Part shown: one piece after another, positions 48,853-55,903 of the stretch
Layout: each line of letters begins with the position of its first letter
Numbering within the stretch: the stretch's first letter is position 1
DNA from: Herbaspirillum sp. LeCh32-8
GTDB taxonomy: Bacteria > Pseudomonadota > Gammaproteobacteria > Burkholderiales > Burkholderiaceae_D
NCBI RefSeq assembly: GCF_017814915.1
Contig: NZ_JAGIPZ010000004.1
Span: forward strand, 188,442-252,441
Length of the DNA: 64,000 nucleotides
Direction: 5' to 3'
The notes under the pieces: model-generated
What the model saw: the letters and a program-made list of their open reading frames with translations, nothing else
Told to the model about the DNA's origin: nothing
Databases searched by the model: none
Translations under genes and position numbers: made by a program

Positions 48853-49857
48853 TTAAGGTTGAGACGCTTGCGGCGTCCAATCCTTGGAGGGCGTCATGTC
48901 GAGCGCCGCCAGCTGCAGGATTTCGCAGCACAACTCTTCGTAGCTCATCCCCTCCGCCTTGGCCGCCATAGGCACCAGCGAATGACCGGTCATGCCGGGC
49001 GAGGTATTGATTTCCAGCAAATAAGGTTCAGCCTTGCCGTCCTGCTCGCGCAGCATGAAGTCGACACGGCTCCAGCCGCGGCAACCCAGCGCGTTGAACG
49101 CCTGCACTGCCAGTTCCTGCAGGCGCCGGGTCAGCTGCTCGTCGAGCGGGGCCGGGCACAGGTACTTGGTGTCGTCGGTGAAATACTTGTTCTGGTAGTC
49201 GTAATTGCCTTCCGGCGCACGGATCTCGATCACCGGCAGGGCGCGCGCATTGCGACCGCTACCCAGTACCGGCACCGTCAGCTCGCGGCCGCGGATGAAT
49301 TCCTCGGCCAGCACCACGTCGTCGTACTTGGCGCACAGGTCGAACCCGGCCTGCACATCCGAATAACCGTTGACCTTGGCGATGCCGATGGTCGAGCCCT
49401 CATGCGGCGCCTTCAGCATCAGCGGCAGGCCCAGCTCGTCGGGCACGACGCGCAGCTGCTCGCGCGTGGTGGCCTTGGCGTCCAGCACCGCAAAACGCGG
49501 CGTCGGCAAGCCATGCGCCAGCCAGATGCGCTTGGTCATGATCTTGTCCATGGCGATCGACGACGCCATCACGCCGGGGCCGGTGTAGGGCAGGCCCATC
49601 TGCTCCAGCGCGCCCTGCAGCGTGCCGTCTTCACCATAGCGGCCGTGCAGCGCGATGAACACGCGGTCAAACTTCTGCGCCTGCAGCTCGCCCAGCGTGT
49701 GTTGCGCCGGATCGAACGGATGGGCGTCGACGCCCTTGCTGCGCAATGCCTGCAGCACGCCGGTGCCGGACATGTTGGACACTTCGCGCTCGGCCGAGCG
49801 GCCGCCGTAGAGCACGCCGACGCGGCCGAATGCCTTGATCTGTTCCTGGCTGATCAT
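48853..49857 (-). CDS. ddlB: D-alanine--D-alanine ligase
   Basis: 334 residues; ATP-grasp enzyme making D-Ala-D-Ala for murein. [20 protein letters not shown] start, [10 protein letters not shown] and [18 protein letters not shown] (metal site) are intact. Overlaps the murC stop by four bases (ATGA). Confidence 0.96.
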
Positions 49858-51281
49858 GCGGCCCCCTGTTCGCTCTTTTCGCTGGCCTGCGCCGTCAGGC
49901 GGCCAGGCACGCCGGAGATCGATCCGGCGCCCATGGTCATCACCACGTCGCCGTCGCGCACCACGTTGCGGATGGTCTCGGGCATGTCGACGATATCGTC
50001 CACGAACACCGGCTCAACCTTGCCGGCCGCGCGCAGCGCGTGCGCCAGCGAACGGCCGTCGGCCGCCACGATGGGCGACTCGCCGGCGGAATACACCTCG
50101 CCCAGCACCAGCACGTCGGTTTGCGAGAGCACCTTGACGAAGTCCTCGAACAGGTCGCGCGTGCGGGTGTAGCGGTGCGGCTGGAACGCAAGCACCAGGC
50201 GGCGGCCCGGATAGGCGCCGCGCGCGGCCGAAATGGTGGCCGCGGTCTCAACCGGGTGGTGGCCGTAGTCGTCGACCAGCGTGAAATGGCCGGCCGGCTT
50301 GCCGTCGGCATCGAACAGCGGCACCTCGCCATAGCGGGTGAAGCGGCGGCCGACGCCGTTGAATTCGGTCAGCGCCTTCTGGGTAGCGGCGTCGTCCACG
50401 TCGAGCTCACGCGCGATCGCAATCGCGGCGCAGGCGTTTTGCACGTTGTGCATGCCGGGCTGGTTCAGGCTCACCTGCATCGGCGCGTAGCCTTCCTGGA
50501 TCACGGTGAACTCCATCTTGCCATCGACCGCCTTGGCGTCCACCGCGCGCACTTCGGCGTCTTCGTGGAAACCGTAGGTAAGGATGGGCTTGGACACCAT
50601 CGGCATGATCTCGCGCACGTGCGGATCGTCCAGGCACAGCACCGCCACGCCGTAGAACGGCAGGCGCTGGGTAAACTCGACGAAGGCCTGCTTCAGGCGC
50701 GCGAAGTCATGGTTGTAGGTCTCCATGTGGTCGGCGTCGATGTTGGTGATCACCTCGATCACCGGCGTCAGGTTCAGGAAGGACGCGTCTGATTCGTCGG
50801 CCTCGGCCACGATGAATTCGCCGGTGCCCAGCTTGGCGTTGGCGCCGGCTGACGTCAGTCGGCCGCCGATCACGAAGGTCGGATCCAGTCCGCCTTGGGC
50901 CAGCACGCTGGCCACCAGCGAGGTGGTGGTGGTCTTGCCGTGGGTGCCGGCAATGGCGATGCCCTTCTTCAGGCGCATCAGCTCGCCCAACATCACCGCG
51001 CGCGGCACGATGGGGATATGTTTCTTGCGCGCTGCCAGCACCTCGGGGTTGTCGCCCTTGACAGCGGTGGAGGTGACGATGGCGTCGGCGCCGTCGATGT
51101 TCTCGGCCGCGTGGCCGTAGCGGATGCAGGCGCCCAGCTGCGCCAGGCGTTGGGTCGCGGCGTTGCTGCCCAGGTCCGAGCCGGACACGCCGTAGCCCAG
51201 GTTGAGCATGACCTCGGCGATGCCGCTCATTCCTGAGCCGCCGATGCCTACGAAATGGATATTTTTGACTCTATGTTTCAT
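49854..51281 (-). CDS. murC: UDP-N-acetylmuramate--L-alanine ligase
   Basis: 475 residues; adds L-Ala to UDP-MurNAc. Starts [21 protein letters not shown]-loop [19 protein letters not shown] motif near 330. The ATG (51281) has only a weak purine tract (GTAAAGAAC) upstream, and its first 14 residues occur a second time in a mini-gene just before it (51287-51391). The codons at this start are unusually AT-rich (AAA, CAT, AGA, AAA, AAT) for this genome. Confidence 0.97.
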
Positions 51282-51286
51282 GTTCT

Positions 51287-51391
51287 TTACTCGCTGGCGG
51301 ACCGGCTTCGCCCAAAACTAAAAAGCGCCGCGCGACCGCGCGGCTCAGCGCCGATGCCTACAAAGTGAATGTTCTTGACGCGATGCTTCAT
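51287..51391 (-). CDS. 34-codon reading frame repeating the murC N-terminus
   Basis: Begins [15 protein letters not shown], identical to MurC for 14 residues, then [19 protein letters not shown] and TAA. Its ATG overlaps the murG stop (ATGA), as expected of a murG-murC junction. The stop lies five bases before the real murC ATG, in another frame (110 bases between the ATGs). Seven of the first 14 codons differ from murC and all seven changes are synonymous. Its end crosses a terminator-like hairpin. It may be a regulatory upstream frame or a duplication remnant. Confidence 0.65.
51320..51344 (-). terminator. terminator-like hairpin between murG and murC
   Basis: On the minus strand GCCGCGC, loop GGTC, GCGCGGC, then GC and TTTTT. 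It lies inside the 34-codon frame, within an operon that must read through to ftsZ, so it could be an attenuator. Confidence 0.65.
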
Positions 51392-52470
51392 GGTGTTACC
51401 AGTCCTTCCAGCACGCGCGCGATCGCCTCATTGGCGTCGCGCCGGCCTTGTTCGTATGCCGCCTGCGCCATCTCCTGGCATGCAGCGCGGTCCATTGTCT
51501 GCAGCAAACCCGCCAGCGCTTCGGCAGTGAGTTCGCGTTGCGGCAGATGAATCGCTGCGCGCTTGTCTGCCATCCATTTTGCGTTGTCGATCTGGTGCGA
51601 GGTGGTCGACACCGCCAGCGGCACCAGCACGCTCGCCACGCCGGCGGCGGTCAACTCGGACACCGTAATGGCGCCGGCGCGGCAGATCACCAGATCGGCC
51701 TCGGCGTAGCGGCGCGGCATGTCGTCGATGAAATCCACCACCTCGGCCTGCACGCCGGCTTGCGCGTACGAGGCGCGCAAGGCTTCGATGTGCTGCTTGC
51801 CCGACTGGTGCGTGACCAGCGGGCGCAGCTCCGGCGCCAGCCTGGCCAGCGCCGCCGGAACGTTGTCGTTCAATACCTTGGCGCCCAGGCTGCCGCCCAC
51901 CACCAGGATCCGCAACGGGCCGCTGCGGCCTGCATAGCGCTGCGCCGGCAGCGGCAACGCCACAATTTCCTTGCGTACGGGGTTGCCGGTGACCTCGGCC
52001 TTGCCGGCGGCACGGCCGAAATCGGCCGGGAAACCGAACAGCACGCGGTCGGCCAGCGGCGTCAGGGTCTTGTTCGACAGCAGCAGCGCGGCGTCGGCGT
52101 TGACCAGCACCAGCGGCTTGCCGCGCAGGCGCGCCATGGCGCCGCCCGGCACCGTCACATAGCCGCCCATGCCCAGCACTACGTCCGGACGGCGGCGGCC
52201 GAGGATGGCGAAGCAGGTCAGGAAACTCGCCGCCATGCGGAACACGCCCTTGACCGTATGCATCAGGCCCTTGCCGCGCAGGCCGGCGAAGACGATGGTG
52301 TCCATTTCCACGCCATGGCGCGGAACCAGATCGCGCTCCATGCCGTGCGAAGTGCCCAGCCAGCTCACCTGCCAGCCGCGCGCACGCATGGTGTCGGCAA
52401 TCGCCAGGCCGGGGAAGATATGGCCGCCGGTGCCGGCCGCCATGATCAGCAATTTGCGGGAGGCGCTCAT
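51388..52470 (-). CDS. murG: lipid II synthase (UDP-GlcNAc transferase) MurG
   Basis: 360 residues from the ATG at 52470 ([20 protein letters not shown]), overlapping the ftsW stop by four bases; the longer open frame covers ftsW. It adds GlcNAc to lipid I on the inner face of the membrane. [11 protein letters not shown] and [20 protein letters not shown] are the typical C-domain motifs. Confidence 0.97.
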
Positions 52471-53732
52471 AGCCGCCCTCCCCGCATCAGCACGCGGTTC
52501 TCGTAATCGATGCGCAGCAGGATCGCCAGGCCGACGCAATTGAGCAGCACACCGGAGCCGCCGTAGCTCATCAGCGGCAGCGTCAGGCCCTTGGTCGGCA
52601 GCAGGCCCAGGTTCACGCCCATGTTGATGAAGGCCTGCACGCCCAGCCAGATACCGATGCCCTTGGCCACCAGGCCGGCAAAGGTCAGGTCCAGTGCGAT
52701 GGCCTGGCGGCCGATCTCGAAGGCGTGCTTGACCAGCCAGTAGAACAACAGCACCACCACCAGCACGCCGACGAAACCCAGCTCCTCGCCGATCACCGCC
52801 AGCAGGAAGTCGGTGTGCGCCTCCGGCAGGTAATGCAATTTCTCCACGCTGCTGCCCAGGCCCACGCCGAACAGTTCGCCGCGACCGAAGGCGATCAGCG
52901 AGTGCGACAACTGGTAGGCCTTGCCCAGCGCGTTTTCTTCTTCCCACGGGTTCAGGTAGGCGAAGATGCGCTCGCGCCGCCACGGCGACATCACGATCAC
53001 CAGGGTGAACACGCCGCCCAGCATGGCGCTGATGCCGCCGAACCAGATCCCGTTGATGCCGCCCAGGAACAGGATGCCCATGGCGATGCAGACGATCACG
53101 CCGAACGCGCCCAGGTCGGGCTCCAGCAGCAGCAGCAGGCCGACCAGGCCGACTGCGGCCGCCATCGGCGCGAAGCCCTTGATCAGCTTGTGCATCACCG
53201 CCTGCTTGCGCACCGTGTAGTCCGCCGCGTACAGCACAATGAACAACTTCATCAGCTCGGACGGCTGCAGGTTGATGATCTTCAGCGACAGCCAGCGCTT
53301 GGCGCCGTTGACGCCCTTGCCCACCCCGGGAATCAGCACCATCAGCAGCAGGATCAGCGTGATGGCGAACAGGTAGGGCGCCCACTTCTGCCAGGTCTCA
53401 ATCTTCACGCGGAAGGCCAGCGCGCCGGCGATGATGGACAGCACAATGAAGATCGCCTGGCGGGTCAGGAAGTGATAGTTCGAGTAGGACGCATACTTGG
53501 GCGAATCGGGCAGGGCCACCGAGGCCGAGTACACCATCACCATGCCGAACAGCATCAACAGCAGCACCACCCAGATCAGTGGCTGGTCGTACTCCATCAT
53601 GCGCGAGCGCTGCTCAAAGCCGACACTGCCGCCACGGTTGCCCATGCCGCCGGCAAGGCGACCGGCCGCGGCCGGGGCGGCGTCTTTCACGCTGCCCAGC
53701 AATCCACGCAGTGACGACAGTCCGAGCTTCAT
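52467..53732 (-). CDS. ftsW: lipid II polymerase FtsW (SEDS family)
   Basis: 421 residues, about ten helices; septal glycan polymerase working with FtsI. An N-terminal cytoplasmic stretch of ~50 residues precedes the first helix ([20 protein letters not shown]). The EELGFVG loop and [12 protein letters not shown] are conserved. Overlaps murD by four bases. Confidence 0.95.
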
Positions 53733-55903
53733 GCGATCACCTCGCCGCGCGACAGCGCCAGCTCACGCACCGAGTCCACGAACACTTCGGCCCGGTGCGC
53801 ATAGTTGCGGAACATGTCCAGGCTGGCGCACGCCGGCGAGAGCAGGACGATCTCGCCCGCACGCGCCATGTCGCCGGCCTTCTGCACAGCCTCTTCCAGC
53901 GTCGCGCAGTCGATCAGCTCGACGCCGGTATCGGCCAGCGCGGCGCGGATGGCCGGGCCGTCGCGACCGATCAGGAACACTGCGCGGCCGTACTTGCTGA
54001 CCGGCAGCGCCAGCGGCGAAAAATCCTGCCCCTTGCCGTCGCCGCCGGCGATCAGCAGGATGCGATTGGGGCGACCGCCCAGGCCCAGGCCGTTCAAGGC
54101 CGCCACGGTGGCGCCGACGTTGGTGCCCTTGCTGTCGTCGTAGTAATCCACGTCCTGCACCACGCCCACCAGCTCCACGCGATGCGGCTCGCCGGTGTAG
54201 TCACGCAGGCCATGCAGCAGTGGCGCCATCGGCAGGTCGACCGCGCGGCACAGCGCCAGCGCGGCCAGCGCGTTCATGGCGTTATGGGCGCCGCGGATCT
54301 TCAGGGCGTCGGCCGGCATCAGACGTTTGACGGTGACCGGTGGCGGCGCCAGCTCCTTTTGCTTGCGGCGGCGTTTGCCTTCCGGCTGCTCGTCGTCTTC
54401 ATGCACGAAGGCGTTGGCCAGCCACAGCATGCCGTTGTCGTTGACCAGGCCGAAGCTGTCCGGCACGCTCGGCTCGTCCAGGCCGAACGAGGACTGCGGC
54501 GCGGCCGCCGACGCCATCGCCATCACGGTGGCGTCGTCGCGATTGAGCACGCGCACGGTCTTTTCACCGAAGATGCGCGCCTTGTCGGCGGCATAGGCGT
54601 CCATGCTGCCGTGCCAGTCCAGGTGGTCCTGGGTGACGTTCAACACGGTGGCGGCGTCGGCCTGCAGGCTGTGCGTGGTGTGCAGCTGGAAGCTCGACAG
54701 CTCCAGCACCCAGGCCTGCGGCATCGAGCCGCGATAGACCGGCTCCGGCGGCGGAGGCGGCGGCACGGCGGCCAGCGCATCCTCTTCGGCGGTGCGCGAG
54801 ACTTCCATGAAATCGCCCAGGTTCAGCACTTCGGCCGGGGCTGCCGACATTTCGGCAGCGGGCGCTTCCAGTTCATTGCCGGCGACGTCGGTCTGCAGGC
54901 CGGCGTCGGTGGATTCGTCGGCGTTGGCGGCTTCGGCCGGCACATGCGCGACGCCTTCAGTGATTTCGTGCGCGACGGTGACGTGCTGCTCCTGTACAGC
55001 GGGTTGTTCGGACTGTTCAGCGTGGACCTGCGACTGATCCTGCGCTTGCCCGGCAGGCGCGCCTTCAGTCTCGACAGCGATAGCGGATTCGGCCTCGACC
55101 GGCTGCGCCGACGCGGCTTCCTGTGCCGCCGATTCCTGCTGGTCCTGAGGCTGCGGCGCCTCGACAATCTGCTCGTCATTGGCTGCCGGCAATTCGGCTT
55201 CCGGCACCGGCACGGCAATCGCCATGGCTTCCTCGATGCGGGCGGCGGCGCGCTTGTGGCGTGCCTCTTCGGCCGCTTGTTGTTCCGCCAGCTCGGCCTG
55301 GCGCGCGGCTTCGGCCTCAGCCTCGGCTTGCGCCTGGGCGGCGGCGAGGGCGTCCTGCTCGGCCAGTTCGGCGAGGAACACCTTGTCCTTGATCAGCGCC
55401 TCGCGCAGCACGTCCAGCGCGGCCGGGCTGATGTTGCCGGCCACCTTGACCGACAGGCCGGCGCGTTGGCACAGCTGGCCGGTCAGGCTGGTCACGGTGG
55501 TCTTGCCGTTGGTGCCGGTGATGGCCAATACCTTGGGCTTGTACAGCGTTTCTTCGCGCAGCGCAGCCAGCGCCTGGGCGAACAGTTCGATCTCGCCCCA
55601 CAGCGGCAGGCCGCGTTCGGCGATGGCCGGCATCAACGGCGCCAGCTCGCCCTCGGGCGCCAGGCCCGGGCTGACCGCGACGAAATCGATGCCATCGAGC
55701 AAAGCCGGCGCCAGCGCCTGGCCCAGCACGGTCTGCGCTTCGGGCGCGTCGGCGCGCAAGGCGGCCAGGCGCTCGGACAGCGCCTGTTCGCCACGCGTAT
55801 CGGCCACGCGCACGCCGGCGCCGCAGTAGACCAGCCACCGCGCCATTGCCAGGCCGGACTCGCCGAGTCCGAGCACCAGAACGTGTTTGCCCGAGTAATT
55901 CAT
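53729..55903 (-). CDS. murD: UDP-N-acetylmuramoylalanine--D-glutamate ligase with a large insertion
   Basis: 724 residues against the usual ~440-500. The N-domain ([20 protein letters not shown]) and P-loop ([12 protein letters not shown], ~130) are normal, and after [13 protein letters not shown] the frame runs into residues ~167-396: a coiled-coil-like AE/AQ-rich part ([20 protein letters not shown]), then an acidic Gln/Ala/Val tract and PPPPPPEP. The ligase resumes at [13 protein letters not shown] and ends with the [11 protein letters not shown] and [12 protein letters not shown] motifs. A second small insertion with KRRRKQK lies at ~500-520. The frame is intact and overlaps ftsW. Confidence 0.93.
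54716..55405 (-). other. insertion within MurD (residues ~167-396)
   Basis: In-frame low-complexity block of about 230 codons rich in Ala, Glu and Gln, poor in aromatic residues, ending in a run of six prolines. It falls between the conserved GNI..LDVL and VLELSSFQL elements of the central ATPase domain. Base composition appears like its surroundings, so there is no sign of a recent foreign insert. Confidence 0.8.

Follow-up and report, generated by a model that had tools for sequence, protein, structure and literature searches.

In leader-peptide transcription attenuators, a biosynthetic gene is preceded by a short frame that covers a hairpin. Integrative elements such as SXT, found at prfC, replace the 5' end of the target gene and supply a new start, and the mobile bypassing elements of yeast mitochondria are small hairpin inserts in coding regions that leave the product intact. 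In termination-reinitiation at ATGA overlaps (PMC10666635), the stop of one gene and the start of the next form a 4-nt overlap or are a few nucleotides apart. Ribosome termination structures (RTS), according to PMC7518266, are mRNA structures located immediately downstream of stop codons.

The unit analyzed here, which separates murG from murC in some members of the family Oxalobacteraceae, shares one or more features with each of these systems. Like the leader-peptide attenuators, it presents a short, translated-looking frame over a hairpin in front of a biosynthetic gene but, unlike them, it has no conserved T-run and no conserved tail peptide, and its frame abuts or overlaps the murC start. 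As in the SXT-type elements, a replacement start is brought in at the start of a gene, and element sequence apparently takes the place of the 5' end of the target gene in five of the six carriers that have close element-less relatives (one tie); unlike these elements, however, the unit is only about 110 bp long, has no integrase, and leaves the displaced, apparently native start open in frame up to the new one. With the yeast mitochondrial elements, it shares the small hairpin insert and the intact product, a second start codon being present instead of bypassing. The successive stop-start contacts are those of termination-reinitiation as characterized in PMC10666635, except that the upstream partner is a mini-ORF that originates in the downstream gene's own start and contains a conserved hairpin. 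Similarly to the RTS of PMC7518266, the unit has a putative mRNA structure where re-initiation would matter, but its stem starts 43 nt past the murG stop, within the next frame. The best reading of the unit appears to be a variant of the coupled leader ORF, in the form of a horizontally shared, tandem-capable cassette without a known match; among the open-access papers listed in our literature searches, no title or opening of an abstract describes it.

Two murC starts in Herbaspirillum sp. LeCh32-8

The window, that is, the whole 64,000-nucleotide stretch of the Herbaspirillum sp. LeCh32-8 genome that we analyzed, contains murG, the mini-frame, the hairpin and murC, all on the minus strand, with the following features:

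51388..52470, minus strand: murG, identified from the sequence with the start picked by eye; its TGA (51390..51388) overlaps the ATG of the mini-ORF as ATGA
51350..51391, minus strand: copy 1, 14 codons of an apparently displaced murC start that form the 5' portion of the mini-ORF
51287..51391, minus strand: mini-ORF, 34 codons plus TAA, open through the hairpin, with the stop 5 nt upstream of the murC ATG
51282..51349, minus strand: spacer of 68 bp separating the two murC starts
51327..51344, minus strand: hairpin GCCGCGC-GGTC-GCGCGGC, 7-bp stem with a GGTC loop, identified by a terminator scan and by conservation with compensatory changes
51320..51324, minus strand: T5 run downstream of the hairpin
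51240..51281, minus strand: copy 2, the opening 14 codons of the real murC
49854..51281, minus strand: murC, UDP-N-acetylmuramate--L-alanine ligase, 475 aa (Pfam Mur_ligase, Mur_ligase_M, Mur_ligase_C)

Residues 1-14 of the mini-frame are identical to residues 1-14 of MurC, and the real murC ATG, at 51281, lies 110 bp downstream of the start of copy 1. The first-pass annotation had described the 34-codon mini-frame with its ATG on the murG stop and its 14 repeated MurC residues (51391..51287, minus strand), as well as the hairpin followed by T5 within the mini-frame and the stop five bases before the murC ATG (51344..51327 and 51324..51320), and all these features were recovered in the present analysis. 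It had further noted seven codon differences between the copies, all synonymous, and considered them incompatible with random decay. Indeed, with the start codon excluded, 7 of the 13 codons differ, all 7 differences are synonymous, and the synonymous share of random single changes in those codons is about 19-26%, so that random decay of one copy does not explain the pattern.

Such an arrangement is unique along the 350-kb contig, where murC is the sole one of 4471 candidate starts to be preceded, within 320 bp, by a repeat of 11/11 residues, the next best being 9/11. The terminator scan lists the window hairpin (2 sites in the region vs 0.5 expected). The 110-nt unit as a whole shows no unusual RNA stability (z of +1.0; 165 of 200 shuffles fold as well or better), and a search of 51100..51500 against Rfam gave no match at an E value of 1 or less. 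The mini-ORF has no Pfam match, and the unit carries no other frame and hence no integrase of its own.

Elsewhere in the window, MurD (53729-55903, minus strand; 724 aa) contains a long low-complexity stretch rich in Ala, Glu and Gln within the middle domain of the Mur ligase, at approximately residues 174-395 as read by eye. Across the Herbaspirillum genomes in which the locus is not split between contigs, the open frames at the murD locus are between about 515 and 748 aa long.

Distribution of the unit among relatives

A search for two murC starts 95-125 bp apart, with the spacer left free, detected this layout in 17 of the 392 Oxalobacteraceae genomes, representing 6 of the 44 genera, at 19 places owing to the two units in each of G052 and G150 (1 match in the reversed control). 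Outside the family, the layout was found in none of 386 genomes of the order (399 in the set, 13 of which are family members) with a start pattern that is typical of this group and blind to units with another start peptide; here, the reversed control matched once. The first-pass annotation had taken absence from all close relatives as the sign of a neutral remnant. The 17 family genomes show no such general absence, whereas G031 and G010, the nearest sisters of the window genome (G000) on the tree of the flanking sequences, do lack the unit.

Within Herbaspirillum, the unit is present in 5 of 34 genomes (G000, G020, G016, G028 and G008, the last with a partial copy at a contig end), and most genomes of the genus have a single murC start that overlaps the murG stop. 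The same -4 gap, that is, an ATGA overlap of murG with murC itself, is found in 48 of the 67 named loci that could be scored (of 80 in total, 12 lacked the murG motif and 1 the murC motif). In the genus g5, 10 of the 19 readable junctions contain the unit, two of them in decayed form (G181 and G247); the other two of the 21 genomes were dropped, G274 because the start was not found and G239 for lack of a murC match. In g23, the proportion is 2 of 13. Judged by these occurrences, the unit is a recurring element and not a one-off scar.

Tandem pairs of units precede murC in G052 (locus L148) and G150 (L156), and the second unit of G052 contains the start of murC together with the junction of the first unit, as expected from unequal exchange between repeats. 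MurC of G269 (L180) has an insertion of six residues, QVHFVG, after residue 12, which resembles what a second tandem unit would leave behind on collapse. These three genomes suggest that units can multiply in tandem and collapse through exchange between repeats.

Some other loci depart from the common layouts in different ways. A distinct insert of about 214 bp with long inverted-repeat arms (by eye) occupies the murG-murC junction of Noviherbaspirillum galbum (L098, 2787-3000) and contains no copy of the murC start. An Oxalobacteraceae MAG (L078, 2878-3000) has a 123-bp murG-murC gap, also without such a copy. In G008 (L116), the sequence to the left of the hairpin, near the contig end, is unlike murG, which may reflect an assembly fault or a rearrangement.

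The identical site in six genera, the tandem units and the patchy distribution would all be compatible with selfish DNA, namely, a minimal mobile unit that is recognized through its hairpin as DNA and inserts only at the murC start, together with a replacement start, with host selection maintaining the open frame. This explanation requires no benefit, and it agrees with the position of the left boundary: where copy 1 is intact, the spacer starts directly after a glycine codon of murC (12, 14 or 15). Against it, the spacer was found at the murC locus only, save for short weak matches, in the 34 Herbaspirillum and 21 g5 genomes, and each of the four off-locus hairpin matches that we inspected in Herbaspirillum lies inside the open frame of another gene; the unit is thus not multi-copy in the manner of dispersed mobile repeats (REP, MITE or IS-derived). 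Furthermore, the mini-ORF is the only gene of the unit, its neighbors are murG and murC, and the right boundary is ragged, with the imported tract passing codon 14 in four of the five Herbaspirillum carriers.

The search for a vehicle among viral contigs, phages and plasmids produced no carrier, which also weighs against selfish DNA. The degenerate murC-start pattern matched no viral contig, and comparison of the unit with phages and plasmids gave 3 and 8 weak matches, respectively (E of 0.03 or more), some in murC, some in other genes and some in unannotated records. A longer query against the plasmid collection retrieved murC genes on its records. The sole viral contig with the spacer-tail pattern was rejected as a chance match given the phage-like gene surroundings and the lack of a murC start nearby. 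Altogether, we consider selfish DNA an unlikely explanation.

Conservation of the mini-frame stop and the hairpin

In all 21 units, the first in-frame stop ends between positions -5 and +11 relative to the ATG that follows, compared to 6.1 units expected from shuffled spacers with free phase. With a single unit per lineage, the product is near 10^-7.7 over 13 lineages, a value that is overstated because several of these lineages share the spacer by descent. The distinct unit lengths (103, 104, 106, 110, 112, 113, 122 and 125 bp) indicate that indels happened. Five of these eight lengths equal 2 mod 3, which puts the TGA of the next ATGA in frame, and the remaining three have a stop of their own at -1 or +11. 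The mini-ORF is 33-42 codons long across the units, and its frames and stop types vary. That 21 of 21 mini-frames end at the next start despite their different lengths, frames and stops supports, at the sequence level, the proposal of the first-pass annotation that translation is coupled from murG through the mini-frame to murC.

The stem is paired in 135 of 135 cells across the units, although the rows behind this count, as well as those behind the codon and stop-position counts, share ancestry and are not independent. Changes on both sides are observed in four of the seven pairs (matched by 3 of 500 shuffles), and the covariation score was reached by none of the 500 shuffles; the number of further pair types, one of five measures, is unremarkable (137 of 500). 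All four one-sided changes produce G-U on the mRNA strand, with zero A-C mismatches, which is a small hint that RNA could be the relevant form of the stem. The reading frame of the hairpin differs between genera and the peptide tails are dissimilar, suggesting that the hairpin is kept as a structure rather than as a peptide. Thus, by these comparisons, the stem and the stop position are conserved and the tail peptide is not.

Copy 1 contains non-synonymous codons in six genomes, namely, 6 in G181, 3 in G226 and one each in G247 (which also has a GTG start), G264, G201 and G052; given this decay, the mini-peptide is, as far as the codons indicate, not generally constrained. In copy 2, the ATG and the start peptide are intact in the 19 genomes compared, with K4R in G283 as the sole change. 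Selection on the mini-peptide, which we also considered, was rejected: it is unneeded once copy 1 is taken as the former native start, and the decay in G226, G181 and G247 contradicts it.

The non-synonymous decay of copy 1 could also be read as the mark of a neutral scar, an old insertion or duplication without function that stays open only because closure of its frame would deprive murC of ribosomes. The absence of the unit from most relatives and the apparent collapsed remnant in G269 fit this possibility as well. A mere scar would not be expected, however, to show compensatory stem changes in several genera or to be present repeatedly in distant lineages, and we assign this explanation a low probability, similar to that of selfish DNA.

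Origin of the two murC starts

For six carriers, the nearest element-less relative has a flank identity of at least 0.85; in five of them, copy 1 resembles the murC start of this relative more closely than copy 2 does, and the sixth is a tie. When all 17 carriers are included, copy 1 is closer in 7 and copy 2 in 6, with 4 ties, most of the additional carriers having no close element-less relative (the flank score of 0.32 for G269 probably just reflects the effect of its 18-bp scar on an ungapped comparison). For carriers in other genera, where close relatives are few, window-by-window nearest-neighbor scores were mostly uninformative. The element-less counterparts within Herbaspirillum are G031 or G010 for G000, G003 for G020 and G009 for G016. 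In four Herbaspirillum carriers, copy 1 is identical to the nearest element-less relative at 29-33 of 33 nt, with G016 matching its sister at 33/33.

Copy 2 is identical at 42/42 positions among G000, G020 and G016, the flanks of which differ at 20-34% of third positions. Similarly, the spacers of G028 and G008 differ by 3%, compared to 34% at the third positions of the flanks (for G055 and G037, the spacers of which are shifted relative to the others, spacer distances are meaningless). Moreover, murC codon 15 is GGA in four of the five Herbaspirillum carriers but in none of the 23 element-less genomes shown, which suggests that the foreign tract extends slightly beyond the repeat.

In carriers with a close sister, copy 1 therefore resembles the native start, and the real start (copy 2) has the look of an import. 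The alternative offered in the first-pass annotation, a duplication scar in which the second copy drifted at third positions, finds no support as worded, given that copy 2 is the invariant copy in G000, G020 and G016 and copy 1 matches the sister species of each lineage. If each of the two starts had been under purifying selection as a working murC, the differences between them would be all-synonymous without any selection on the mini-peptide, and copy 1, once displaced, could decay freely, G226 and G181 being examples.

On the flank tree, the four Herbaspirillum carriers are scattered among element-less sisters and require 4 changes. A single clade of carriers is rejected (p-AU 8e-89), as is the grouping of G000 with G020 alone (2.3e-5), in a quick tree that excludes G008, G015 and G023 and includes five rows, among them G028, with deviating base composition. 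Taken together with the copy 2 and spacer identities, this pattern suggests horizontal transfer of a short tract at the murG-murC locus. We estimate the imported tract at only about 110-140 bp, which is short for ordinary homologous recombination.

Vertical inheritance of an ancestral unit, with many losses, would account for the fact that the spacer subfamilies G000/G020 and G016/G028/G008 roughly track two host groups of Herbaspirillum, and the AGA at codon 4 of copy 2 is also found in basal members of the genus (L051, L052 and L055). Nevertheless, by our count on the flank tree, this scenario involves about 12 losses within Herbaspirillum vs 4 gains. In addition, simple repeat deletion in a carrier with GGATCC would leave GGATCC behind, which is seen in none of the 23 element-less genomes shown, although G000 itself is without GGATCC. 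Vertical inheritance hence appears improbable, somewhat more so than the two preceding explanations.

Predicted ribosome binding and transcription at the murC start

In the window, weak anti-SD pairing is predicted ahead of the murC ATG (-3.1 kcal/mol, compared to -7.7 upstream of copy 1), in line with the first-pass statement that murC has no good ribosome binding site of its own. The values for murC in four Herbaspirillum carriers are -3.1, -3.1, -3.7 and -7.6, vs a mean of -7.0 in 25 element-less loci of the genus. Across genera, the statement does not extend to the carriers overall, the mean being -5.2 in the 16 carriers computed and -5.3 in 82 element-less loci; since carriers overall show no weaker predicted SD, murC may be independent of a relay from the mini-ORF. 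We also considered whether the recoding of copy 2 had served to open the RNA around the start; this idea fits G000 (MFE of -4.0 vs -14.5 for copy 1) and G020 (-3.1 vs -16.3), but it was dropped because it fails in G016, G028, G058 and G331 and the means are equal.

Transcription attenuation, the function put forward in the first-pass annotation, would have the hairpin and T-run terminate transcription before murC-ddlB-ftsQAZ whenever the mini-frame is not translated. The window genome has the parts for it, a terminator-like hairpin and T5 covered by the mini-frame. However, an uninterrupted T5 follows the hairpin in only 2 of 20 units (G000 and G020), and 8 of 20 have, more loosely, 5 T in 8 positions; the stem is conserved without the T-run. 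As a general function, attenuation is unsupported, and we regard it as very unlikely.

Programmed ribosome bypassing from the glycine codon of copy 1 to the same codon of copy 2 would resemble the case of gene 60 of phage T4 in that the take-off and landing codons match and a hairpin follows shortly after the take-off site. A landing site needs no start codon of its own, however, and bypassing would relax copy 2, the ATG and start peptide of which are kept in the 19 genomes compared while copy 1 decays in six; we give this reading a probability of next to nil.

A mini-ORF that may relay ribosomes to murC

On balance, we lean towards the explanation that the unit is a recurring, horizontally shared, locus-specific cassette of the Oxalobacteraceae murG-murC junction, the mini-ORF of which relays ribosomes over an RNA hairpin to murC. 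Most relatives have a murC start that lies on the murG stop as ATGA, presumably with translation by termination-reinitiation. The cassette would insert, behind the native start, a hairpin spacer and a second, foreign murC start, turning the native start into the head of a mini-ORF. Ribosomes that end murG would then restart at copy 1, translate the mini-ORF through the hairpin, terminate where the new murC ATG lies and begin again at that codon. In this way, the mini-ORF would act as a translational relay that preserves murG-murC coupling over the inserted hairpin, and the hairpin, if it acts as RNA, probably sets the number of ribosomes that reach murC and so might tune the level of MurC. The cassette itself may spread by horizontal recombination of short tracts.

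A need for such a relay is suggested by experiments in E. coli and Haloferax, in which, according to PMC10666635, coupling is almost lost when the gap is about 20 nt. If the same holds here, an insert of 110 bp would uncouple murC unless spanned by a frame; in every unit examined, a frame does span the insert and reaches either the start of murC or the unit that follows. More tentatively, and with considerable doubt, the cassette might install, in any species that receives it, a tunable translational valve between murG and murC that comes with its own, synonymously different start, moves horizontally and can be stacked in tandem.

MurC opens the peptide branch of cell-wall synthesis, and murC belongs to the division and cell-wall cluster, in which gene order and coupling are usually considered fixed. 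The unit calls for caution in that a gene start repeated with only synonymous changes can reflect import rather than selection acting on that repeat. The natural pairs of genomes with and without the unit provide a ready test of the effect of a coupled mini-ORF and hairpin on downstream output. A recurring insert that parts murG from murC and yet keeps their stop-start contact would show how an essential operon with tight coupling can take up foreign DNA and stay intact.
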